From contig JAHBXW010000002.1 of NCBI GenBank assembly GCA_019636235.1, forward strand, positions 62,001 through 126,000: 64,000 nt of DNA, written 5' to 3'. A program made the translations under genes and the position numbers. Below, piece after piece: positions 4,992 through 21,736 of the stretch. The DNA is from Planctomyces sp. (GTDB lineage: Bacteria; Planctomycetota; Planctomycetia; Planctomycetales; Planctomycetaceae). Every line of letters begins with the position of its first letter. Positions within the stretch are counted from its first letter, which is position 1. The notes under the pieces were generated by a model, which saw nothing but the letters and a program-made list of their open reading frames with translations, made no database searches and was not told the origin of the DNA.

Positions 4992-6029
4992 ATGGGATGG
5001 CGGACCGCAATCCAGGGGCCGGCAGTCATGGGACTGCTGGCGATCTGTGGACTCGGACCGGCGGCGGAGCCGGAAACCGCCCGCTACGAATTCGAGCAGA
5101 TCCGATTCGCCGCCCCTGTCCGTCTCGCATTTTACGCCCCGTCCGAACCGCTCGCAAATCAGCTTGCCGAAGACGTGTTCCGCCGGCTCAAAGAGTTCGA
5201 CCGGATCATGAGCGATTACGACCCGGACAGCGAACTGTCGCAGCTCTGCGAAAACTCCGGTCCCGGGCGTCCCGTCCGCGTCAGCGACGAGCTGTGGGCC
5301 GTGATCCAGGCGTCCCAGGCCTGGTCGGAAGCCACCGACGGCCAGTTCGACATCAGCCTGGCCCCCTCGGTGCGGCTGTGGCGGATCGCCCGGCGGAAAC
5401 AGGCCCTGCCCACCGACGAGGAGCGCCGCGAGGCCCTGGCGAAATCGGGCTGGCGGTCGATCGTGCTCGATCCGGACCAGCAGACGGTCGAGCTGCGCAA
5501 GCCCGGCATGCGACTCGACCTGGGGGGCATCGCCCAGGGCTACGCGGCGGACGAGGCCATGCGGATCCTGAAGGCCGGCGGGATCGTCAGTGCGATGGTG
5601 GACGTCAGCGGCGACATCTGCGTCAGCGCACCGCCCCCCGGGACCGGCGGATGGCGCATCGCGATCGAATCCCCGCTCGGCCCGGATTCGCCGGAGGGCG
5701 CCCGGGTTCTGCTGCTGCGGAATGCGGCCGTTTCGACATCGGGCGCGGCGTATCAGTTTGTCGAGATCGAGGGAGTGCGGTATTCGCACATCATCGATCC
5801 AGCGACGGGCTTGGGAATGACGGCCGCCTGCACGGTGACGGTGATCGCGCCGGACGCGCTGACGGCTGACGGGATCGACACGGCGTTGTGTCTGCAGGGT
5901 TCGGAGCGGGGTCTGCGGACGGTGGCGGCCCATCCGGGAATCGAGGCGATGTTCTCAACGCTGATCGATGGCCGGCTGGAGGTGGTGGAATCGCCGGGAT
6001 TCGCGCGCTGGATCGCGCCTGCGGAGTGA
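4992..6029 (+). CDS. apbE: FAD:protein FMN transferase (ApbE family)
   Basis: ApbE proteins transfer FMN from FAD onto Thr/Ser of extracytoplasmic flavoproteins such as Nqr/Rnf subunits. The sequence shows [63 protein letters not shown], then [12 protein letters not shown] and [12 protein letters not shown], all typical in order. A short hydrophobic N-terminus ([18 protein letters not shown]) suggests export. I prefer the ATG at 4992 because GGGGGA lies 7 nt upstream; ATG 4971 is in frame and would add 7 residues. It is divergent from the SUMF1 lipoprotein. No Nqr or Rnf genes are in the window, so the target flavoprotein is unknown. Confidence 0.88.
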
Positions 6030-6183
6030 CGTCTGGAGGGGCGTTGTTAAGCTGGGCCGGGCGCCATTGTCGGCTTGTCGACTGTGCTGAGTTCTCAGCT
6101 GTCGGCGATCGGCAGAATTTCGCACAGGCGGGCAAGGCCCCCTTGGAGCCAGGCTGTCGACCGCCGGCCGCACCGACTGTCGA

Positions 6184-6414
6184 TCAATCCTCGGAATCCG
6201 CGGGCCGCTCGTCCTCGCCGGCGGCGAACAGATTCTGATCGCGAAAGCGCCCGGATGGCCGGGGCCTTTCCCCTCCCAGCGACTTCCGCCACTCCGGCGG
6301 AACCTCCAATGCGCCGGCCGCCCGGAGTTCGTCGACGGAAATCAGGTGCGGGCGGGGCGACGCTCCGACGTCAATGTCCTCGTCGTCATTCGCTGAATCT
6401 GAGCGTCGGTCCAT
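6184..6414 (-). CDS. Small acidic/basic hypothetical protein overlapping the methyltransferase 3' end
   Basis: This 76-residue frame begins inside the last codons of the preceding methyltransferase gene, with a 29-nt overlap in a different frame, so it could be translationally coupled. The product starts MDRRSDSANDDEDIDVGA and includes SVDELRAAGALEVPPEWRKS. It has no membrane segment and no recognised family. The start and overlap are the only support besides residue composition. Confidence 0.4.
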   Translation of the reverse strand: MDRRSDSANDDEDIDVGASPRPHLISVDELRAAGALEVPPEWRKSLGGERPRPSGRFRDQNLFAAGEDERPADSED

Positions 6415-9400
6415 CGCAAATCGCCTCCAGAATCGCTGCCTGTCCCGGTTCGAGTTCCACCAGCATGGTCAGGACATGCAGAACATTGAGCAGCTCCGTC
6501 GTGTATTCGGCCAGCCAGTGGTCGGGTTGGATCTCGCCCAGTTTGGATGGGGGACGCCGGTCGCCGATCAGCGGCCGCTCACGATTCCGCCTGCGATAAC
6601 TGAACCACTGGGTCAGAACCCGCTTGCCGGACACCTCGTACCGCCAGACGGCCGGGTCGACGTTCTCCACGAACCCCGTCCCGACCAGCAGGCGGCGCTG
6701 CGACGAATCATAGTCGATCTCGTCGGGCATGGCATCCGGCGTGCCAGGGATCGCGCCGGCCTTCGGGATGCGCGGCGACCGGTCCTTCGGCAGCCGCGGG
6801 GGGCCGGGAAGACGTCCCGCCTTGCGGTCGGCGTAACGCTCGCCGAACGTGTGCAGCCAGATCACGTGCCGGCCGATGTCGACGGCGCGCGAGAACCGTT
6901 TCCAGTCGGCCGCGATGGACATGCGCAGTCCAGGCTGGGCGAGGTCGGCCTGAAACCGGGCCGTGTAGGCGGGGCTGGCGGCGACGCCGGCGAGGTAGGC
7001 GAAGAAGTCTTCGGCCGTGACGTCCTTGCGGTACGTGCGGGAGAGGAAGGGCAAAAGATCCGGCGGCAGGTTGGGCGTACGGGCTTCAGGATCGCGCCAC
7101 AGGGGAAAGACGCGGCCGCCGCGCCCATTGTAATGGTGAAGGTCTGGAATCAGTGATGTGAATGTGATCGCTGGACCGGCCGTCGGCGATCGATCGCTCG
7201 GCGCCGTCAAGTAGACCTGCCTTGCCGAGTGCGCGCGCCACAGTTCCGGATTCGGCTGGTTGATGACCCGGCTGTCAGGAACGATCCACTGCCGATCAAA
7301 CGATCGAAAACCGTATGGAATCGGCGATGGACAGGCACCTTCGTCATCAGCAACGGGTAGCGGATTGTCGACATAGCCCGGCAGAGCCCTGACGACCTTA
7401 TGGACGTGCTTATCGCCGGGCAGTCCCCCCCGCAAATGCGGATGGAAGAGTGCGGCCTTTTCTTCGGCTGTGGCCTGAACCAGTCTCGCCCATCGCAAGA
7501 CCAAGGAATTCGCATCGGGGGCGATGACCCACGTTCGGCCCGGCATGACTCCCGCGCCGTTGTACGCGAACAGGTCGTCCAGCGCCGGATAACTGGCCCA
7601 CGCCCCCGACGACGCGGGCAGAAACGGCGTGCGCCACTCTGTTGAGCAGACTTGCCAGGAGCGGGATTCCAGCTTCAGCTTCGCCAGGGCCGCGAACTTT
7701 TCCTCGCGCCGGCCGGCCGGCAGGGCCGCGTACTTCACCACCGCCGGCGCGCCGGCCGCCTTGGTCTTGGATCGCGCCGCCAGCACGATGCACACGGGCT
7801 GCTGGACGCCCTGGAAGATGCGGGTCGGCACGTCGGGCTGGTGGCCGTCGGGCGAGCAGTCGATGACCCAGATCCGGTCCGCCTTGCGGCGCAGGTCATC
7901 CCGCATCCGCTGGAATCCCGGGCCGTTCAGAAAACCGGCGACCGTGATGAAGCAGACGATGCCCGCGTCATGGTCCGGGTCGACATCGAAGACCTTCCAG
8001 GTCGCCCACCGCCAGAAGTAGACATACAGGTTCCGGAGATGCTTGGCATGCGCGCCGACTCCCCAGTCGGCGGGCGGAATCCAGGCGTTCAACGGCCCCT
8101 TCGCTGTCGCGTTGCCGTCTTCGACCCAGCCGCCCCGTCCCTTGGCCTTTTCCTTGTACGGGGGATTGCCGATGACGACCGTGATTGTCTCGTTGCGCTT
8201 GATCTCATTCGCCAGCCGCCGGGATTCAGCGATTCGACCGTACCAGGAACCGAGCGTCTCGACGGGCGTGTAGGGGTCCGCCAGCGTGTCGGCGACGAAC
8301 ATCCGCGGAACATCTCGGGGCGGTTTCCCGATGAGCTGCAATAGTTCGGCGTACACCCGGAGCTGCGCGACGGCGAACGGTCCCAGTTGCATCTCGAAGG
8401 CGATCAGGCGACCAATGGCGGCGTCGATGGCCTGCGGGACGGCGCCTTCCCCCTGATCGGCCTCGACGTCGGCGGCGATCTGCCTCAGGACTCCCAGGAG
8501 GAATGTGCCCGTACCCACGGCCGGATCGGCGAGCGTCACATCAGCTGCGGCCAGTCCGGCGCTGCGTCCGAAGTGCTTGCGCAGCACATCGTCCACGAGA
8601 CGGATCATCGGCCCGACGACTTCCGGCGGGGTGTAGTAAGAGCCGGTGAGTTTTCGCAGCTTGTTGTCGTAGACCGCCAGAAAGTCCTCGTAGAAATACA
8701 GCCACGCGTCGGCGTTGCCTTTGCTGATCGCCTGCCAGTTGACGGCGTCCAACACGCGGACGAGCGCATGCAGAGACGTTTTCAGGGTGGCCTTGCTTTC
8801 GACCTCGTCGGTGAGCAGGCGGAGCGCGGCCCCGATCAGCGAGTTGGTCCTGCCGAGTTCCCTGCCGACCTGATCCAGTCCATCGGCGAGGCGGATGCCG
8901 CTGGACCGGGCCATCAACAGGCCGAACGTGACGGCCTGCGCGTAGCCGTCGGCGAACTGTTCGTCGTTCGCCTCGGGAAAGAGCAGCTTTCGCCAGTCAG
9001 CGGCCAGAGCCGTCAATGCCGGACTGTTCTCGGAGAGCTGTTCGGTGACCTCATCGCGCAGCAGGCGGCAGAGTTTCGCGGAAACCTTCGCGAGTTCGGC
9101 GGCGGACCTGGGACGAATTGGTTCCCACTGGAGGAATCTGTCGAAGAGGACCAGCAGTTCGGCGGGAGCGGCGAGTTTTTCGCCCGACGTCGCGACATCT
9201 CCCTGCAGATGAACGATGGTCCCGACTGGTTCGCCGCTTTGCCACAGACTGAACGAATTCCCGTCGGTATAGAGCACGTTCGGGAGGGATTGCAGCTTTT
9301 CCCACTGCTCCTTGTCGTGCCCTTTATAGCGACGAGGGTCCGCCCCCTTGCCCGGGGCTTTGACTTCAACGAAGCCGACAAGCACATTGCGCAGCGTGAC

Positions 9401-9616
9401 CGAGTAGTCGGGCCGCGTTTTCAGCGACGTGAGGGAAGACTCGCCGACGGCGGTCAGCCAGTCACGTCGCAAGCCGCACAACTCCGCGAGATCGCCAAAG
9501 AGCCGTTCCAGCGGACTGCGCAACTGGTCCTCAGGCTCTCCCGTGATAGCGGGATTGGCGAGTTTGGCTTTTGTCTCCGCGCCGAATCTGGCAATGGCCG
9601 CGTTGAGATCTGGCAT
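6386..9616 (-). CDS. Single-chain N6-adenine DNA methyltransferase with N-terminal nuclease domain (type ISP / type IIG-like)
   Basis: The protein has 1076 residues. The N-terminus holds a PD-(D/E)xK-like nuclease core (D70 in TRPDYSV, then E84-V-K86 in GFVEVKAPGKG). The central part is an N6-adenine methyltransferase: GSYYTPPEVV (325-334), motif I DPAVGTGTFL (364-373) and motif IV NPPY (484-487). The C-terminal half is long and resembles the specificity region of type ISP enzymes. I see no helicase motor between nuclease and methyltransferase, unlike true type ISP enzymes, so the layout is closer to type IIG/IIL enzymes that cut and modify with one chain. No separate S, R or BREX/DISARM genes are adjacent. 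The likely role is restriction-modification; target site unknown. Confidence 0.82.
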   Translation of the reverse strand: MPDLNAAIARFGAETKAKLANPAITGEPEDQLRSPLERLFGDLAELCGLRRDWLTAVGESSLTSLKTRPDYSVTLRNVLVGFVEVKAPGKGADPRRYKGHDKEQWEKLQSLPNVLYTDGNSFSLWQSGEPVGTIVHLQGDVATSGEKLAAPAELLVLFDRFLQWEPIRPRSAAELAKVSAKLCRLLRDEVTEQLSENSPALTALAADWRKLLFPEANDEQFADGYAQAVTFGLLMARSSGIRLADGLDQVGRELGRTNSLIGAALRLLTDEVESKATLKTSLHALVRVLDAVNWQAISKGNADAWLYFYEDFLAVYDNKLRKLTGSYYTPPEVVGPMIRLVDDVLRKHFGRSAGLAAADVTLADPAVGTGTFLLGVLRQIAADVEADQGEGAVPQAIDAAIGRLIAFEMQLGPFAVAQLRVYAELLQLIGKPPRDVPRMFVADTLADPYTPVETLGSWYGRIAESRRLANEIKRNETITVVIGNPPYKEKAKGRGGWVEDGNATAKGPLNAWIPPADWGVGAHAKHLRNLYVYFWRWATWKVFDVDPDHDAGIVCFITVAGFLNGPGFQRMRDDLRRKADRIWVIDCSPDGHQPDVPTRIFQGVQQPVCIVLAARSKTKAAGAPAVVKYAALPAGRREEKFAALAKLKLESRSWQVCSTEWRTPFLPASSGAWASYPALDDLFAYNGAGVMPGRTWVIAPDANSLVLRWARLVQATAEEKAALFHPHLRGGLPGDKHVHKVVRALPGYVDNPLPVADDEGACPSPIPYGFRSFDRQWIVPDSRVINQPNPELWRAHSARQVYLTAPSDRSPTAGPAITFTSLIPDLHHYNGRGGRVFPLWRDPEARTPNLPPDLLPFLSRTYRKDVTAEDFFAYLAGVAASPAYTARFQADLAQPGLRMSIAADWKRFSRAVDIGRHVIWLHTFGERYADRKAGRLPGPPRLPKDRSPRIPKAGAIPGTPDAMPDEIDYDSSQRRLLVGTGFVENVDPAVWRYEVSGKRVLTQWFSYRRRNRERPLIGDRRPPSKLGEIQPDHWLAEYTTELLNVLHVLTMLVELEPGQAAILEAICDGPTLRFSE

Positions 9617-9853
9617 TTCCGAGTGGCTGGAGAATCGGAGCGGCGTTCATTCAATCTGAGGGCGAGCGGGAATCCTAACAGGAACCGCAACCCGCGGAAG
9701 CGGAAGTCCGCTGGCTGCGGCCCGCGATTACCAGCTCCGTTGATCTATTCGCCCTGCTGGCCGAACCTCCGCCGGCGTCTACAAACCCGCTGAGCCCGCG
9801 GCGGAGCCCTGTCGCAGGCCTGTCGCAACGGGCGGAATCACGGGAGCGGCGGA

Positions 9854-10321
9854 GTGGCGGACTGGTATCCCTGGCTGATCGCAGCCCATCTCGCCGCCAC
9901 GCTCTACATGGCGGGCGTCATCTGGTTCGTCCAGCTCGATCATTATCCGCTGCTGGCCTGCGTCGGGCGGCAGGACTTCGTGCGGTATGAAACGTCGCAC
10001 CGGCTCCGCGTGACGTGCGTGGTGGCGCCGGCGATGCTGGTTGAGGCGTTTTCAGCGGCGGCGCTGTGCCATTGGCCGCCGCGGGGCGTGCCGGGCTGGC
10101 TGGTGTGGCTGGGGATGGGGCTGGTGTTCGTGAACTGGATTGCGACAGCGGCGTTGTCGGTTCCCGCTCATGACGCGCTGTCGCGGGGATACTGCGAGCG
10201 GACGATCGGGCGTCTGGTGCGGACCAACTGGGTGCGGACAGTTGCCTGGACGGCAAGGGCGATCGTGGCGCTGGCCCTGGTGTGGCCCTCGATCGCCCTG
10301 GCAACGCCCTCGGAATGGTGA
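9854..10321 (+). CDS. Conserved four-helix integral membrane protein
   Basis: The 155-residue product has about four hydrophobic segments (roughly 5-27, 53-72, 80-102 and 130-150). The first helix ends in GVIWFVQLDHYPLL, and RYETSHRLRVTCVVAPAMLVEA follows. The pattern of a WxVQxxHYP motif, then a polar His-containing segment and PAMLxE, recurs in small uncharacterised bacterial membrane proteins. The start is GTG at 9854 with CGGGAGCGG upstream. The function is unknown. A perfect hairpin covers its stop codon. Confidence 0.7.
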   Translation: MADWYPWLIAAHLAATLYMAGVIWFVQLDHYPLLACVGRQDFVRYETSHRLRVTCVVAPAMLVEAFSAAALCHWPPRGVPGWLVWLGMGLVFVNWIATAALSVPAHDALSRGYCERTIGRLVRTNWVRTVAWTARAIVALALVWPSIALATPSEW

Positions 10322-10330
10322 TTCCGAGGG
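10307..10330 (+). terminator. Perfect 10-bp hairpin overlapping a stop codon
   Basis: CCCTCGGAAT and ATTCCGAGGG flank the 4-nt loop GGTG. The TGA stop of the upstream membrane-protein gene is at 10319-10321, inside the structure. No T-tract follows, so it may act as an mRNA 3' stabiliser or a weak terminator rather than a classical Rho-independent one. Confidence 0.4.
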
Positions 10331-10331
10331 G

Positions 10332-10645
10332 ATTGCTCGCTTCGCCCGCCCTCTCGTTCTCACTGACCACCCGCCGGAGGGCGTCTGATCCCGGTCGGCC
10401 TCAGGCCCCTCCGCAGCACGCGAAACCGACGTTGCGATTCGGCAACGTGTTGACGACAGGCAGCATTCGGACTGTCGATTTCCGAGGACGCGGAGCGCCG
10501 CGTTCAGCCGGATGAACAATCCCGCTAATGCTTTACGCGCGAGCGCCAACTTTGCGGCCCCAACCGGCATGGGCTTTGATTGTGTGGGACCGGGGGACGG
10601 TGACTCCCCCTCCCGATCTGTTGTGCCCGCGAACGAAGGTTCCGC
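10332..10645. other. Intergenic region without recognised gene
   Basis: About 310 bases upstream of the sigma-54 activator gene. No plausible coding frame, RNA or repeat was recognised. It presumably contains the promoter of the downstream gene. Confidence 0.5.
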
Positions 10646-16454: not shown

Positions 16455-17897
16455 ATGTCCACGACTTCTCGACGCACGTTTCTGGGTTGGGCCGCGGGAG
16501 CGGCGACGGCGACCGTTCTGGGAGGCCGTACCTCGCACGCGGCGGCAAGCAGCGGCGTCCGGGTCCGCAAGGATGTCAGCGAGCTGTCGGCCTCGCATCC
16601 CGATATCGAGGCTTACAAGGAAGCCGTCCGAAGGATGAAGGCGTTGCCGGCCAACAATCCGCGAAGCTGGCTGGCGCAGTCCCGAATTCACGGCATGCTG
16701 GGGGGAGGGTTCGGCAACTGTCGGCATGGGAGCTGGCACTTTCTGCCGTGGCACCGCGCGTACCTGCACTACTTCGAGGAGATCTGCCGCGAGTTGAGCG
16801 GCAAACCGGATTTCGCGCTGCCGTACTGGGACTGGTCGCGGACGCAAAGCATTCCGGCGCACTTCTTCGGAGCGGGAAATCCACTCGACAACCCGTCGGC
16901 GACAGGGAACGTCGGCCGGCAACGCGGCCCGATGGAGACTTTCTCTCAGCAGAACCTGGACGAGTTCGTCGGGTTGAACGTCATCTCCGCGATTCTGGGC
17001 AACCCGGATTTTGAGACGTTCGCTGGCGGGGCCGTCGCCAACATCAATGCGCGAGGCACGCAGGGACGCCTGGAGAGCGTTCCCCACAACTTCGTGCACC
17101 GTTGGGTGGGAGGCGACATGGCGACGGGGGGCTCCCCCTACGATTCGATCTTCTGGCTGCATCACTGCAACGTCGACCGCCTGTGGAGCGAATGGTCGGC
17201 CCGGCACCCGAACAGCACACCGAACGACCCGTTGTGGCTGAATGGAGACTACGGCGGACATTTCGTTGACGGCGAGGGCATGCTGGTGGGTTCAATTCAG
17301 GTTCGAAACCTGCTGGACACGGCGGCGCTGGGCTATCGGTACGACACGCGGTCCGAGGCGATCGCCGTGGCGCCGCAGCCGTTGAACCTGAAGATCGCCG
17401 CGCTGACCGCCGCCGCGCCGGCCGCCAGCGACGGCGGGTTGACCTTCGCCCTGGCCCCGAACGAGGAGGAACGCGCGGAACTCGCCAAGGTCGGCGAGGG
17501 CGCTCTCAGCGCGCCGAGCGTCCGCATCCGCCTCAGCGGAATCGAAGTTCCCAAGAATCAGGACGTCAGCCTCCGGGTGTTCGTCAACTGCGAGCTGCTG
17601 ACGGAATCGACGCCGATCGACGACCCCAGCTATGTCGGCAGTTGCACGTTCTTCAGCCACGGCGACCACGGGCACGGGGACGATTCGCATGGGGACGGGA
17701 CGGCGTCCTTCTTCCTGAACGCGTCGCCGGCGTTTGCGAAGCTGTACGGCGATCGTCCCCTCAAGGAGGACGAGCCGCTGAAGGTCTCGATCGTGGCCGT
17801 GCCATTGTTCCCGGACGACGCTGAGCGGACCTGGTCGGGATCCGTTCAGGAACTCAGCCCCAAGCAGGTCCAGATTGATATCATTACGGGCAGTTGA
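16455..17897 (+). CDS. Tyrosinase / polyphenol oxidase with Tat signal
   Basis: The protein has 480 residues. A twin-arginine signal (TTSRRTFLGWAAGAATATV) shows export of a folded, probably copper-loaded enzyme. CuA ligands fit H79, H91 and H100 (RHGSWHFLPWHRAYLHYFE) and CuB ligands H211, H215 and H237 (VPHNFVHRW and FWLHHCNVDRLW). C89 lies two residues before H91, the spacing of the Cys-His thioether in fungal tyrosinases. Residues from about 350 form a C-terminal domain like that capping plant polyphenol oxidases, with a His/Asp-rich loop (H402, H405, H407, H412). Tyrosinases oxidise phenols to quinones. The next gene encodes a lipoprotein resembling this C-terminal domain. Confidence 0.93.
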   Translation: MSTTSRRTFLGWAAGAATATVLGGRTSHAAASSGVRVRKDVSELSASHPDIEAYKEAVRRMKALPANNPRSWLAQSRIHGMLGGGFGNCRHGSWHFLPWHRAYLHYFEEICRELSGKPDFALPYWDWSRTQSIPAHFFGAGNPLDNPSATGNVGRQRGPMETFSQQNLDEFVGLNVISAILGNPDFETFAGGAVANINARGTQGRLESVPHNFVHRWVGGDMATGGSPYDSIFWLHHCNVDRLWSEWSARHPNSTPNDPLWLNGDYGGHFVDGEGMLVGSIQVRNLLDTAALGYRYDTRSEAIAVAPQPLNLKIAALTAAAPAASDGGLTFALAPNEEERAELAKVGEGALSAPSVRIRLSGIEVPKNQDVSLRVFVNCELLTESTPIDDPSYVGSCTFFSHGDHGHGDDSHGDGTASFFLNASPAFAKLYGDRPLKEDEPLKVSIVAVPLFPDDAERTWSGSVQELSPKQVQIDIITGS

Positions 17898-17976
17898 GGG
17901 ATGTTCGACAAGCCCGGGCGTCCCGGCGCGGAGACAAGGTCCGCGCCGGGGCGGGTCCGGATTGCGGAGGTGTGCC

Positions 17977-18576
17977 GTGTGGACGGGACCAACGGGGTTG
18001 GGCGTCGCGCTCTGGCTGTCAGCCTGCGGGCTGTCCGAGCAGGCGCCGAAGGCGTCGCCGAAATCGGAAGAACCGGCCGCCGGGGAACCAGCCGCCGATT
18101 CCAAGTCTGCGATCGACGATGAGCCGCAGCCAACGGAACTCACCACGGAGACGCCGGCCGTCGTGGAGCTGAAACTCAGCGAGGAGCAGCAGGCCGACAT
18201 TCTTGAACGGCTGGCGAAGCCGCGGCCGCAAACGGTCCGATTGACCCTGACGGACATCGTACCGGTCGGCGGGAAGCCGCCCAGCGGCGCGATTCGGATC
18301 TTTCTGGGCGAAGGGGACGAGGCGGTGACCGCCAAGACGTCCGTGCGCGACCCGCGTTACGCGGGAACCGTCGTGTTTCAGCCTGCGCACGGGGAGGAGC
18401 CGCAGAGTTTCGTTCTCGATGTCGCCCCGGTGCTGGCGGAGTTGCGCCGCCGCGAACGCGTCGCGCTCGACAAGCCGATTCGCCTGCAATTGTTGCTGAT
18501 TCCGATCGAAGGGGACGATCCTCCCCGTCCGGTGACGTTGAAATCAGCGACGCTGTCCGTTCCCGAGCCGCGTTGA
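17977..18576 (+). CDS. Lipoprotein resembling the tyrosinase C-terminal domain
   Basis: The product has about 199 residues. GTG 17977 follows GGAGG by 6 nt and gives a lipoprotein signal ending LSAC (Cys17). A Pro/Glu-rich linker leads to a domain from about residue 85. It aligns by eye with the C-terminal domain of the tyrosinase just upstream: VRLTLTDI against VRIRLSGI, DPRYAGTVVF against DPSYVGSCTF, SFVLDVAPVLAEL against SFFLNASPAFAKL, and IRLQLLLIPI against LKVSIVAVPL. The His-rich loop is missing. It may cap or modulate the tyrosinase, or act as a membrane-anchored partner; this role is inference. The 79-base spacing suggests one transcript. Confidence 0.75.
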   Translation: MWTGPTGLGVALWLSACGLSEQAPKASPKSEEPAAGEPAADSKSAIDDEPQPTELTTETPAVVELKLSEEQQADILERLAKPRPQTVRLTLTDIVPVGGKPPSGAIRIFLGEGDEAVTAKTSVRDPRYAGTVVFQPAHGEEPQSFVLDVAPVLAELRRRERVALDKPIRLQLLLIPIEGDDPPRPVTLKSATLSVPEPR

Positions 18577-18906
18577 TTTTCGCGCTGCACTACGGGACAT
18601 GCCGCTTGCCGGCGGTTCGGCGGCATTTCCGATTCAAAGTGGCAAGACGCGCGCCGATGCCGGCTGCGCGGCCATGTTCAACGGTGTTGCAATCCCGTAA
18701 CGGATGCAGGTCTGAAGTCCCTGGCGGGACTGCTTCGACTCCAGTCGCTCAACCAGGGCGGTACGCCCGTCACGAACTCTGGGTTGAGAGGACTGCGTGT
18801 TGTTCAGGTGGCGATGCCGGCTCGCGGGATGTATCGTGCGCTTTACGGAGTTGACCGGCAGAAGCCAGCGCTGCTGATCGCCATGATCATTCTTCGGACA
18901 TCTCTA
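18577..18906. other. Intergenic region without recognised gene
   Basis: About 330 bases between the lipoprotein and the frameshifted esterase gene. No supported coding frame, structured RNA or repeat was seen. Confidence 0.5.
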
Positions 18907-21736
18907 ATGAAGGCATTCCTTTCGCTCGTGCTGCTGTCGATGGGGGCGTCGTCGCTGTTGGCGGCGGAGCGGCCCTTGAAGGTCTTCATTCTCGCGGGGC
19001 AGTCCAACATGGAGGGTCACGCCCGGATCGAGACCTTCGACTACATTGGCGATGATCCGGCGACCGCGCCGCTCCTGAAGCGCATGCGGGGTGCGGATGG
19101 CTCGCCGGCGGTTTGCAATCATGTCTGGATTTCGTACCTCACCGGGGACGGCGAAGCGAATGGCGAGGGCTTCGGCATGCTCACGGCGGGGTATGGCTCG
19201 CGGCAGAAGCCGAACGAAGACGGCGGCAAGATCGGGCCGGAGTTCACATTTGGACTGACTCTCGACGAACAGCTCGAGGAGCCGGTGCTCATCATCAAGG
19301 CCGCGTGGGGCGGGAAGTCGCTGCACACCGACTTTCGCCCGCCGAGCGCCGGGCCATATGTGCTAAGCGATTGGCAACAGGCGAATTATCCCAAACAAGC
19401 AGGGCACGGCATCCCACAGGATTTTGAGAAGTGGAAGGCCGACAAGGTCGACGAAACGGGCGTCTACTACCGACTCATGATCGACCACATTAAGCGCGTC
19501 CTGGCCGACCCGAAACGCGTTTGCCCCGTTTACAATCCGGCGGCAGGTTGCGAGCTTGCGGGCTTCGTCTGGCTGCAAGGTTGGAACGATATGGTCGACG
19601 GGCACGCGTACCCCGATCATGGCCAGCCCGGCCGCTATGAACTCTACAGCGACTGCCTGTCGCACTTCATTCGCGATGTGCGCCGCGATCTGTCCGCTCC
19701 CAGGATGCCGTTTGTGATCGGCGTTATGGGGGTCGGCGGCGAGCAGGCCGACTCGGAGATTGTGGAGTTCCGCAAAGCAATGGCCGCCCCAAGCCTGCTG
19801 CCCGAGTTCAAAGGCAATGTCGCGGCCGTTCCGACATCGCCGTTCTGGGCCGAGGAACTCGGAGCCATTTGACGACAAGTACGGCCAGGTTCGGCAGATG
19901 AGCTACTTCCTTGATTCAAAGCACAAAGACTACGCCAACGCCGACGGGTCGATGACCGCCGAGCAGAAGCGCGAGTGCCTGAAGAAGTTCGAAGCCGACC
20001 TCATCTCGCCTGCCGAAGTTGCGCTCTGGAATCGCGGCGCCTCGAACGCGGGTTATCACTACCTCGGCTGCGCGAAGACGTTTGCACTGATGGGCCAGGC
20101 GTTCGCCGAAGCCAACCTCGCGATGTTGAATTCGCCGCACGAGGCGGCAGAGAATCCGGAGCAGGATCAGCCTGCGATGGCGGAGCTCATCAGGGGCGAG
20201 ATGGCGGGATACTTGCTGATCCCGAATGAGAAGGCGCCTGAAACGTTCAACGCGGGCTTCTCCATGTACATCGCCGCCTGGCCGTTGCTGAAGCAGTATC
20301 CGGGGCAGCGGTTTCAGTCGGGACTGCCGGGAACCTGGATGTTCGCGCAGCCTGTCGATAAGCCGCTGGAGAAGGGGTACTCAGATATTGAGGGGGGGCT
20401 TGGCTGGTGGCGGGATACCGAGTACGCCACGGAGACGCCCAAATTCATCATGGGTGGCGTGGCTCCGGATTTCGTCGAATGGGCCAATGGCCCGGGGGCG
20501 GGAAAGGGGCGGGACTGGGACATGCCCAATGGCAAGTATGCGGTTGCACAGCTCAGCCCGTGGGTGCTGTGGCCGCCGGACGGGTTGAACCTCAAGCAGG
20601 GCACGCGCGGCGAATGGTTTGGCTATGGCTATCTTCCGCTGCCGCTGACGCAGCCAAAGACGACGACCGACGGACAAGACATTCCGACCGGCAATCAGTG
20701 CTGGACGCTGTTCCTCAATGCCGGCAACTTCAAAGGGCCGGTCACGTTCTTCACGCCCTACTTCTGGTCACGCAACGCCGTTCGTGAGCCGCGTTTAGCC
20801 GGGCATCTGCTCGACGCTCGGCCGTCCGATCCGAACCGCGCGCTGCAGATGGAGACGCAGCACATTCCCAGCGTGCAGGCGACGGACTCCCGGGGCGTCA
20901 CTTACGCGCGGATCACCCCGACTCAGTTCCCGAGCGACGCCAACGGCGACTCGGCATTGGCGCATCGCATCACGTCTTACAACCGACAGGCGTTGTGGGA
21001 CGCTGTGCAGGCGTGGTTCGACGGCGGCCCTGTCGCAAGCGGCGCGGTCAACACCGATGGCGCTACGTTGCACGAGTTCCCCGGTCGAGGCGGAGCGACA
21101 TGGGAAATCTATCCCGACGGGAGCGAGAAGCCGGAGAAGGCCGCCGTCGCATGGACTTCTTTCGCGACGCCTTTTGCGCCGGACAGAACCACGTTCGGCT
21201 ACAAGTGGAACCCGCAGTGGGTGACGCGTGACGAATCAGCCAATCGCCATCTGGTCGTCTTGCCGGAGTACTTTCGACTCGACATGAACGATCAGCGCAA
21301 GCCCGTGTGGTCGCCGGCGACTGCGTCGGAAGTCCCCGCCGAGACCGGCCTCGCCGACGTTCGATTCGACCGCCGGCGCCGCGGCCCGCCCATGACCTAC
21401 GAGACCCCATCGGATGCCAACAGTTGTTGGAAGACGCCAGGTCCGAAAGCCGGTCCGTTCACAGCTCATCTGGGGGACGGGAGCGTCGTGACTTACTCCT
21501 GGTATCGGTTCGCCGATCAACCCGCGCTGCTCAACGCCGACATGACCGACGCCGAACGCGAAGCCATTCAGGGTCGTGTGGAGCTCTTGCATCGTCACTG
21601 GACAAAAGACCGCGACTACCTCTCGCCGCCCGCGAGCGGCGAACTCGCCGATCTCGACCCGGCCCTGATCGTCACCCCGCCGCCCGGATTGGAGGTCGGA
21701 TATGTGCCGATTGTGACTCGGCAGGAACCGCAGTAA
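18907..21736 (+). pseudogene. Frameshifted sialate O-acetylesterase (SASA)-like secreted protein
   Basis: The first frame (18907-19872) has a signal peptide (MKAFLSLVLLSMGASSLLAA) and a SASA/GDSL-type esterase domain: VFILAGQSNMEGHAR, then FVWLQGWNDMVDG and FRKAMAAPSLLPEF. It stops after EELGAI. The sequence continues naturally in the +1 frame as DDKYGQVRQMSYFLDSKHKDYA and runs about 620 more residues to 21736. Removing one T from the TTT at 19868-19870 would restore a single frame of about 940 residues. The C-terminal part (GAPETF-like and FGYGYLPLPL segments) is not a family I can name. It may be a pseudogene, a sequencing error or a programmed frameshift. Confidence 0.75.

Follow-up and report, generated by a model that had tools for sequence, protein, structure and literature searches.

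A detached homolog of the tyrosinase C-terminal domain encoded beside tyrosinase genes in distant bacteria

Introduction

Why would a bacterium whose tyrosinase already carries its own C-terminal lid encode a second, separate protein of the same kind directly behind it? This question is raised by a 64,000-nucleotide stretch of DNA from Planctomyces sp. (GenBank assembly GCA_019636235.1, contig JAHBXW010000002.1, positions 62,001 to 126,000 of the forward strand), referred to here as the window. The original prediction for this locus, made from the sequence, was that a lipoprotein aligns with the C-terminal domain (CTD) of the neighboring tyrosinase and is a duplicated, detached capping domain, now anchored to the membrane. 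It might keep the exported enzyme inactive, hold it at the membrane or help to load copper, and no two-part system of this form was thought to be described. Profile comparison, predicted folds and a survey of both genes in other genomes were proposed as checks. Caddie pairs, fused CTDs, bare enzymes and PpoB2 are among the arrangements described in passages of earlier papers (PMC11608171, PMC9454253, PMC10526336, PMC8049008, and PMC2855505).

The tyrosinase gene and its neighbor

The two genes lie on the + strand, 79 bases apart, and their main features are collected in Table 1. The coordinates first given for the lipoprotein gene are correct, as the GTG start codon, the GGAGG ahead of it, the stop at 18576 and the 199-aa product all bear out. 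An in-frame TTG at 17962 is a second possible start; it adds MRRCA, with two arginines, and the signal is then charged. The lipobox LSAC was read by eye, but in the GTG-start version no charged residue precedes it.

Table 1. Features of the tyrosinase-lipoprotein pair, in positions of the window
Feature	Position	Strand	Evidence
Tyrosinase gene, 480 aa: Tat-type signal, type-3 copper core, C-terminal lid	16455..17897	+	PF00264 7.6e-39
Fused C-terminal lid domain (CTD), tyrosinase residues 328-480	17436..17894	+	Strand/helix order of the model; aligned with detached copies
Phe400 codon, gatekeeper of the fused CTD	17652..17654	+	Aligns with MdPPO1 Val449; residue number counted by hand
His-rich loop of the fused CTD (SHGDHGHGDDSHGDGTA)	17655..17705	+	Four His
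GGAGG, likely ribosome-binding site of the lipoprotein gene	17966..17970	+	Sequence read directly
Detached CTD homolog, lipoprotein of 199 aa	17977..18576	+	BLASTP, shuffles, profile-profile comparison
Lipobox LSAC, predicted lipidation site Cys17	18016..18027	+	Pattern read by eye in the translation
CTD-like jelly-roll domain (predicted), lipoprotein residues 53-195	18133..18561	+	Model; ten-residue pLDDT means 82-97; 7xio Z 13.3
Gln135 codon, gatekeeper position of the lipoprotein	18379..18381	+	Alignment column, same in two alignments

The tyrosinase is the only PF00264 gene found in the 5.6 Mb genome. Its twin-arginine signal motif is SRRTFLG, and seven of its histidines (His79, 91, 100, 211, 215, 236, and 237) are invariant in an alignment of 35 tyrosinases; we take six of them to be the copper ligands. 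PF12142 and PF12143 are the middle and C-terminal families of plant polyphenol oxidases. In the Pfam scan, the tyrosinase matched both (E 0.0015 and 0.0019, respectively), as well as PF10518, all below the curated cut-offs. The closest fold to the tyrosinase model is the Ralstonia tyrosinase 7xio, and within the fused CTD the model falls below pLDDT 50 at residues 404-412.

Upstream of the pair are genes for a GNAT acetyltransferase and two universal-stress proteins, and downstream are a sialate-acetylesterase-type gene and cysteinyl-tRNA synthetase; none of these flanking genes was seen beside the other pairs described below. The end of the sialate-acetylesterase-type frame (18784-19872) is overlapped by a long frame in another phase, 19760-21736, which has no Pfam match, and the two are possibly one gene split by a frameshift. 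A promoter and terminator scan was uninformative: it gave no promoter-like sites and one terminator-like site, on the - strand within the tyrosinase gene, fewer than in shuffled sequence.

The lipoprotein is a homolog of the tyrosinase CTD

The alignment noticed at the outset is well borne out. In a single BLASTP comparison, the lipoprotein and the tyrosinase CTD share 28% identity over 170 aligned positions (E 1e-10). Lipoprotein residues 46-199 reach a local score of 120 against the tyrosinase, and none of 2000 shuffles came near this value (mean 33, maximum 66). Across the whole genome, the only matches of the lipoprotein at E <= 0.001 are itself and the tyrosinase CTD, the next lying at E 0.175.

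Profiles of detached copies from several genomes give the same result. A profile built from five such copies, with no tyrosinase included, recovers CTDs from dozens of tyrosinases, the best at 6e-20. A profile of six copies finds CTDs in the PDB (8b74 5e-6, 7xio 7e-6, 9wfm 3e-4) and, weakly, the isolated C-terminal domain of apple MdPPO1 (6elv 0.008, 6elt 0.012). The mutual profile similarity by which the prediction was to be judged is present: the detached copies, which we call family I, match fused CTDs in profile-profile comparison at P 9.4e-24 (145 columns; 0.05 for the reversed-sequence control) and, with other alignments, at 1.7e-20. PF12143 is matched at E < 0.01 by 7 of the 10 detached copies of other genomes (not by those of loci L023, L142, and L143), and two, L067 and L140, exceed its curated cut-off of 26 with scores of 28.1 and 28.5. 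The window lipoprotein itself was not listed for PF12143 at E <= 10 in the Pfam scan, in which HMMER filters drop most matches above ~0.1. Chance similarity is ruled out by BLASTP, the shuffles and the profile-profile comparisons, and these sequence comparisons show the window lipoprotein to be a homolog of the tyrosinase CTD by common descent.

Predicted fold of the detached domain

The AlphaFold2 model of the lipoprotein (mean pLDDT 82) has the element order E-E-H-E-E-E-E-H-E-E-E, the main order of which is shared with the model of the fused CTD, E-H-E-E-E-E-H-E-(short H)-E. In a VIA-align search, its top 11 structural matches were all tyrosinase or polyphenol oxidase (PPO) entries with a CTD, at Z 13.3 to 10.6 (7xio 13.3, 6els 11.8, 6elt 10.6). 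The model thus matches solved tyrosinase CTDs first, and the difference in fold that could have spoken against the relationship did not occur at the level of models. This match is not independent of the homology because the alignment from which the model was built was rich in fused CTDs, which could pull the fold toward that of a CTD; the sequence profiles are free of that weakness. The lipoprotein domain is predicted to be the jelly-roll of solved tyrosinase CTDs.

The pair recurs in other genomes

The proposed survey of both genes covered the best 80 of 188 confirmed tyrosinase loci (genome contigs), with whole-genome searches in addition, and gave eleven genomes with a pair: the window, G003, G562, G563, G564, G565, G1272, G1255, G1084, G978, and G961. 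G003 comes from the same family as the window. Among the others are a Gemmataceae genome labeled "palsa" (G562, locus L023), a Nitratireductor metagenome-assembled genome (MAG) (G563, L026), a Methylocapsa MAG labeled "bog" (G564, L067), and a Deltaproteobacteria MAG (G565, L072). The two genes are adjacent and on one strand in all eleven, with the detached gene downstream of the tyrosinase in 10 and upstream in one (G565), and every partner tyrosinase keeps its own fused CTD. Puniceibacterium confluentis (L024) is a weaker twelfth member and stands outside the counts of eleven.

With the centre genome of each search counted in, a detached family I copy was carried by at least 1 genome among the 392 of the phylum sample, 2 among 170 from the window's family, 1 among 385 from the class to which G563 belongs, 3 among 102 from the order of G562, 4 among 248 from the family of G564, and 1 among 145 from the order of G565; all are lower bounds because at most 8 to 32 candidates were scored per genome. 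Among the candidates scored, no pair-bearing genome showed a second detached copy elsewhere. The other matches in the genome searches were frames of tyrosinase length, or G520, where the match lies within a 957-aa frame and was set aside when a second profile gave no confirmation. G1378 was rejected as well, as it holds a fused CTD only, and the short frames at L056 and L041 resemble pieces of tyrosinase genes (frame break, contig end) and were dropped from the alignment counts together with L097. At L097, from an Acidobacteriales MAG, a 363-aa tyrosinase frame (5926-7014) overlaps a separate 192-aa CTD-like frame (6984-7559), which suggests a split gene or a frameshift. Searches of viral contigs with the window lipoprotein and of plasmids with the Methylocapsa detached copy gave no relatives, and we saw no convincing case of a tyrosinase with two naturally fused CTDs.

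We found no conserved third operon gene: in the 64 of 76 neighboring frames scanned, no Pfam family occurred in more than two. As a lead only, a gene for a trypsin-family protease in G1272 (L139, 7260-8087) is convergent with the detached CTD gene, 32 bases from it; trypsin is named as an in vitro activator of pro-tyrosinases in a part of one review (PMC9454253).

Export signals, all read by eye, were seen in 10 of the 11 detached copies. The window and G563 copies have a lipobox, those of G978 and G961 an uncleaved membrane anchor, and those of G562, G564, G565, G1272, G1255, and G1084 a Sec-type signal; the G003 copy has no evident export signal. With two lipoboxes and two membrane anchors among 11 copies, membrane anchoring is not general. 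Anchoring is a probable feature of the window copy, in which an export signal and a lipobox can be read, but not a trait of the family.

Evolution of the pair

The detached copies are divergent, at 14-29% identity to the window copy. Our tree comprises 59 domains; of the 57 other CTDs, 20 had been removed before it was built. Many of its branches are long, and the program warns of this. The window copy falls into a group with its detached counterpart from the Gemmataceae genome G562 (support 97/94) and not with its neighbor's CTD, and the partner CTDs of these two genomes also group, with weaker support (91/73). Among the pairs of G564, G1272, G1255, and G1084, the branching pattern is the same for the two genes. 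From the tree, the pair seems to have been inherited jointly and the detachment to be older than these lineages. In an AU test, a single clade of all detached copies was not rejected (p 0.129), nor does the tree establish one. The tree lends no support to a recent, private duplication of the window tyrosinase's own domain; what is left of the proposed duplicated capping domain is a detached CTD copy, apparently not one freshly derived from its own enzyme.

Other second genes behind tyrosinases

To place family I in a wider setting, we took the best 80 of 188 loci and sorted into families the frames that immediately follow the tyrosinase on its strand. Family I accounts for 4 of these loci, plus L024; in L072, the gene is in front of the tyrosinase. 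Family II accounts for 11, family III for 7, family V for 12, and a PpoB2-type gene for 10, with no such gene in 26 and a contig end in 6. Three further loci have CTD-like frames: L041, where the frame is a fragment at the end of a contig; L049, a weak case at a distance of 857 bases; and L097. In total, families I-III provide 23 of the best 80 loci with a CTD-like second gene, II and III being probable relatives only.

Family II (L028 7557-8057, L034 2437-2949, L025 3769-4320, and 8 further loci) consists of proteins of ~145-200 aa with a signal-like start, encoded right behind CTD-tyrosinases; several members share the motif VGRFSIFP...RYRFDVTxAL. Family III (L039 7400-7951, L040 7411-7935, L064 7291-7869, L037, L043, L050, and L062) is found behind tyrosinases of cyanobacteria (Symploca and Richelia) and Alphaproteobacteria, with the motif LGTYGFFPP in several. 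Both look like exported beta proteins of ~145-200 aa. Neither gave a match above cut-off when three members of each were compared with Pfam and one of each with NCBIfam. Profile comparison links the two families to each other (P 7e-8) and to fused CTDs (P 5e-5 for II and 4e-5 for III, HHalign probability 68-70%; reversed controls 0.3 and 0.18), while family I matches III at P 3e-4 and II weakly at P 0.0079. On these sequence profiles, families II and III are probable distant relatives of the CTD.

Family V (L052, L060, L065, L069, L070, L073, L080, and others) comprises small proteins whose genes follow tyrosinases, mostly of rhizobia, at a distance of ~4-120 bases; some members lack an evident signal, and a relation to the CTD was not borne out (P 0.0067). 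The PpoB2-type member tested, L088, matches PF09948. By best label, none of the 10 PpoB2-type loci also has family I, II, III, or V (Fisher p 0.001, 74 loci). Against families I-III alone, the exclusion has p 0.026, or 0.15 if L081 is counted as both, so the argument that these genes fill one slot is weak. Tyrosinases with PpoB2 and those with families I-III may simply be different lineages.

The gatekeeper column and the histidine loop

In fused CTDs, a lid residue lies over the copper site: Phe453 in vsTyr (AlphaFold model), Val449 in MdPPO1, and Ile456 in AUS1, and exchange of Phe453 for Ala in vsTyr raised activity and left the copper sites underloaded (from a portion of PMC10526336). In the alignment, MdPPO1 Val449 falls on the second Phe of an SxxFF motif, which is Phe400 in the window tyrosinase. 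We compared this gatekeeper column in 79 rows, comprising 11 detached copies, their 11 partner CTDs and 57 other fused CTDs (profile 1e-4), with near-duplicates kept and three broken or short frames excluded. The other fused CTDs have Phe in 56 of 57 rows and Leu in one; the partner CTDs have Phe in 6 of 11 and Leu or Val in 5. Among the detached copies, Phe is found in only two (G003 and G563), Val, Leu, or Met in three, and Gln, Ala, Gly, or Ser in six, none of which occurs in the 68 fused CTDs. No bulky residue stands at this column in the window lipoprotein, which has Gln135 there in two alignments, the column being set through MdPPO1 Val449. The result was the same in a second, merged alignment, except that G563 has Leu and G978 has Ser there; by eye, the weaker twelfth member, L024, has Phe.

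At least two His are present in the loop next to this position in 42 of the 57 other CTDs and in 9 of the 11 partners, but in none of the detached copies. Detached copies differ from partners with Fisher p 0.012 for the gatekeeper and 0.0002 for the His loop, in rows that are not independent. Families II and III have Phe in 16 of 19 members and Tyr in one more, and a loop with two or more His in none of the 19; loss of the plug is thus a trait of family I only.

Because the gatekeeper and the His loop are lost, inhibition and copper loading are both disfavored as main roles, and with them two of the three functions first suggested for the lipoprotein. As an inhibitory cap in trans, it would, like the fused CTD and the Streptomyces caddie, cover the active site and keep the enzyme silent until removed. 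Its predicted fold is that of known inhibitory CTDs, most members of families II and III keep Phe, and the column holds Phe or an aliphatic side chain in 5 of the 11 copies of family I. The window copy, however, has Gln, small or polar residues fill the column in six copies, and the tyrosinase already has a fused lid bearing Phe400; we judge this reading improbable. A copper-loading chaperone would instead pass copper to the apo-tyrosinase in the manner of MelC1 or PpoB2, both presented as copper-transfer factors in the relevant parts of PMC11608171 and PMC2855505, and the lipoprotein occupies the place of the PpoB2-type gene in other tyrosinase operons. Against this stand the missing His loop in all 11 detached copies, a window domain (residues 46-199) with one His, no Cys, and no Met, and the lack of a match to MelC1 models; we give it a similarly small chance.

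Comparison with described tyrosinase systems

The claim that no two-part system has been described needs qualification: MelC1/MelC2 and PpoB1/PpoB2 are described, although their accessory proteins differ from the lipoprotein. The closest relatives are the zymogen tyrosinases and PPOs (vsTyr, MdPPO1, AUS1, and Ralstonia TYR; PPO1_KFDV for PF12143), which have a homologous domain with a like predicted fold. In these enzymes the CTD is fused, whereas the window homolog is a separate exported protein, additional to a fused lid; compared with fused zymogen CTDs, detached copies lack the His loop in 11 of 11 cases and a bulky gatekeeper in 6 of 11.

MelC1 of Streptomyces is likewise a beta-rich tyrosinase partner encoded by a second operon gene (passages of PMC11608171 and PMC9454253), although its gene stands upstream of its tyrosinase according to the same passages. 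Parts of PMC11608171, PMC9454253, and PMC10526336 describe how MelC1 Tyr98 reaches into the site and brings copper, and present the Streptomyces tyrosinase as an enzyme without a CTD of its own, in contrast to that of the window. The lipoprotein was not listed at E <= 10 for the MelC1 models NF047833 (NCBIfam) and PF06236 (Pfam), within the HMMER filters, and membership of the MelC1 family was rejected, judged by sequence alone.

PpoB1/PpoB2 of Marinomonas mediterranea (PF09948) is also a bacterial tyrosinase operon with a second gene (PMC2855505, in part), and a PpoB2-type gene stands at the place of the detached CTD in 10 of the best 80 loci. PpoB2 is described in that part of the paper as a transmembrane copper-transfer protein, and the lipoprotein has no sequence match to it: PF09948 was not listed for the lipoprotein in the Pfam scan, and the profiles of family I and of PpoB2-type proteins do not match (P 0.99).

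A further detached CTD-like protein adjoining a tyrosinase is found in Chromobacterium sphagni (L081). There, a 319-aa tyrosinase frame without a lid (5962-6918) is followed by a DUF7868 protein (6908-7399; PF25271 1.9e-44; family I profile match 1e-5), which stands between it and a PpoB2-type gene; a further tyrosinase frame, this one with a CTD, is located at 9284-10534. The DUF7868 lid seems to be the sole lid of its enzyme and keeps Phe and His (by eye), whereas the window copy comes on top of a fused lid; L081 is possibly a split zymogen. The window lipoprotein reaches PF25271 at E 0.085 only. In the open-licence literature, we found no description of a detached CTD beside a fused one.

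Discussion

We put it at slightly better than even that the lipoprotein, as a detached relative of the lid, is a dedicated accessory subunit of the tyrosinase encoded upstream. The tyrosinase would be exported by Tat and the lipoprotein by Sec, so that both would meet in the periplasm, and in the window organism the lipid would hold the complex at the membrane. The detached domain could dock on the tyrosinase with the copper site left unblocked, and it may hold the enzyme or assist its maturation, or else trade places with the fused lid, rather than act as an inhibitor or a copper carrier. In favor of the accessory-subunit reading are the homology and the predicted fold, the adjacency on one strand in 11 of 11 genomes whose other flanking genes have little in common, the co-inheritance of the pairs, the lost plug and His loop and, as a weak argument, the PpoB2-type genes in the corresponding place at 10 of the best 80 loci. 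Several observations count against it: Phe is kept in 2 of the 11 detached copies, by eye in L024, and in 16 of 19 members of families II and III; 5 of the 11 partners themselves have Leu or Val; and the G003 copy lacks an evident signal.

The jelly-roll might also have turned into a binding module, that is, a carbohydrate- or polymer-binding lipoprotein that puts products or substrates of the tyrosinase near the envelope. The first match of the lipoprotein model outside the CTDs is a chondroitin-binding carbohydrate-binding module (CBM) at Z 8.4, and a similar resemblance is noted for the vsTyr CTD in a section of PMC10526336. Structural Z values near 8 are, however, common for models in general, and such a role would leave the pairing with tyrosinase unexplained, which makes it unlikely in our view. 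A functionless, decaying duplicate of the CTD would account for the high divergence, but it is very unlikely given that the frames are open beside tyrosinase in 11 genomes and the pairs co-inherited.

Beyond the accessory subunit, we offer a wider proposal that we ourselves regard as doubtful. CTD-derived, separately exported proteins may be a widespread and unrecognized third class of tyrosinase partner besides MelC1 and PpoB2, within which family I would be a plugless lid. By taking over the position of the inhibitory lid that is fused to the enzyme, it would open the zymogen in trans, at the membrane, with no need for proteolysis. As of a 2022 review, in the part that bears on this, there were no experimental data on the in vivo activation of bacterial pro-tyrosinases (PMC9454253). 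Tyrosinase activity is discussed in the same source as a control on carbon storage in palsa- and bog-type habitats, and two of the pairs (G562, "palsa," and G564, "bog") come from assemblies named for such habitats.

Taken together, the arrangement recurs in distant bacteria and points to an undescribed helper protein of tyrosinase. This suggests that many bacterial tyrosinases have been studied and produced without their natural partner, and a conserved second gene for a plugless lid would be a concrete candidate for the activation of pro-tyrosinases in the cell.
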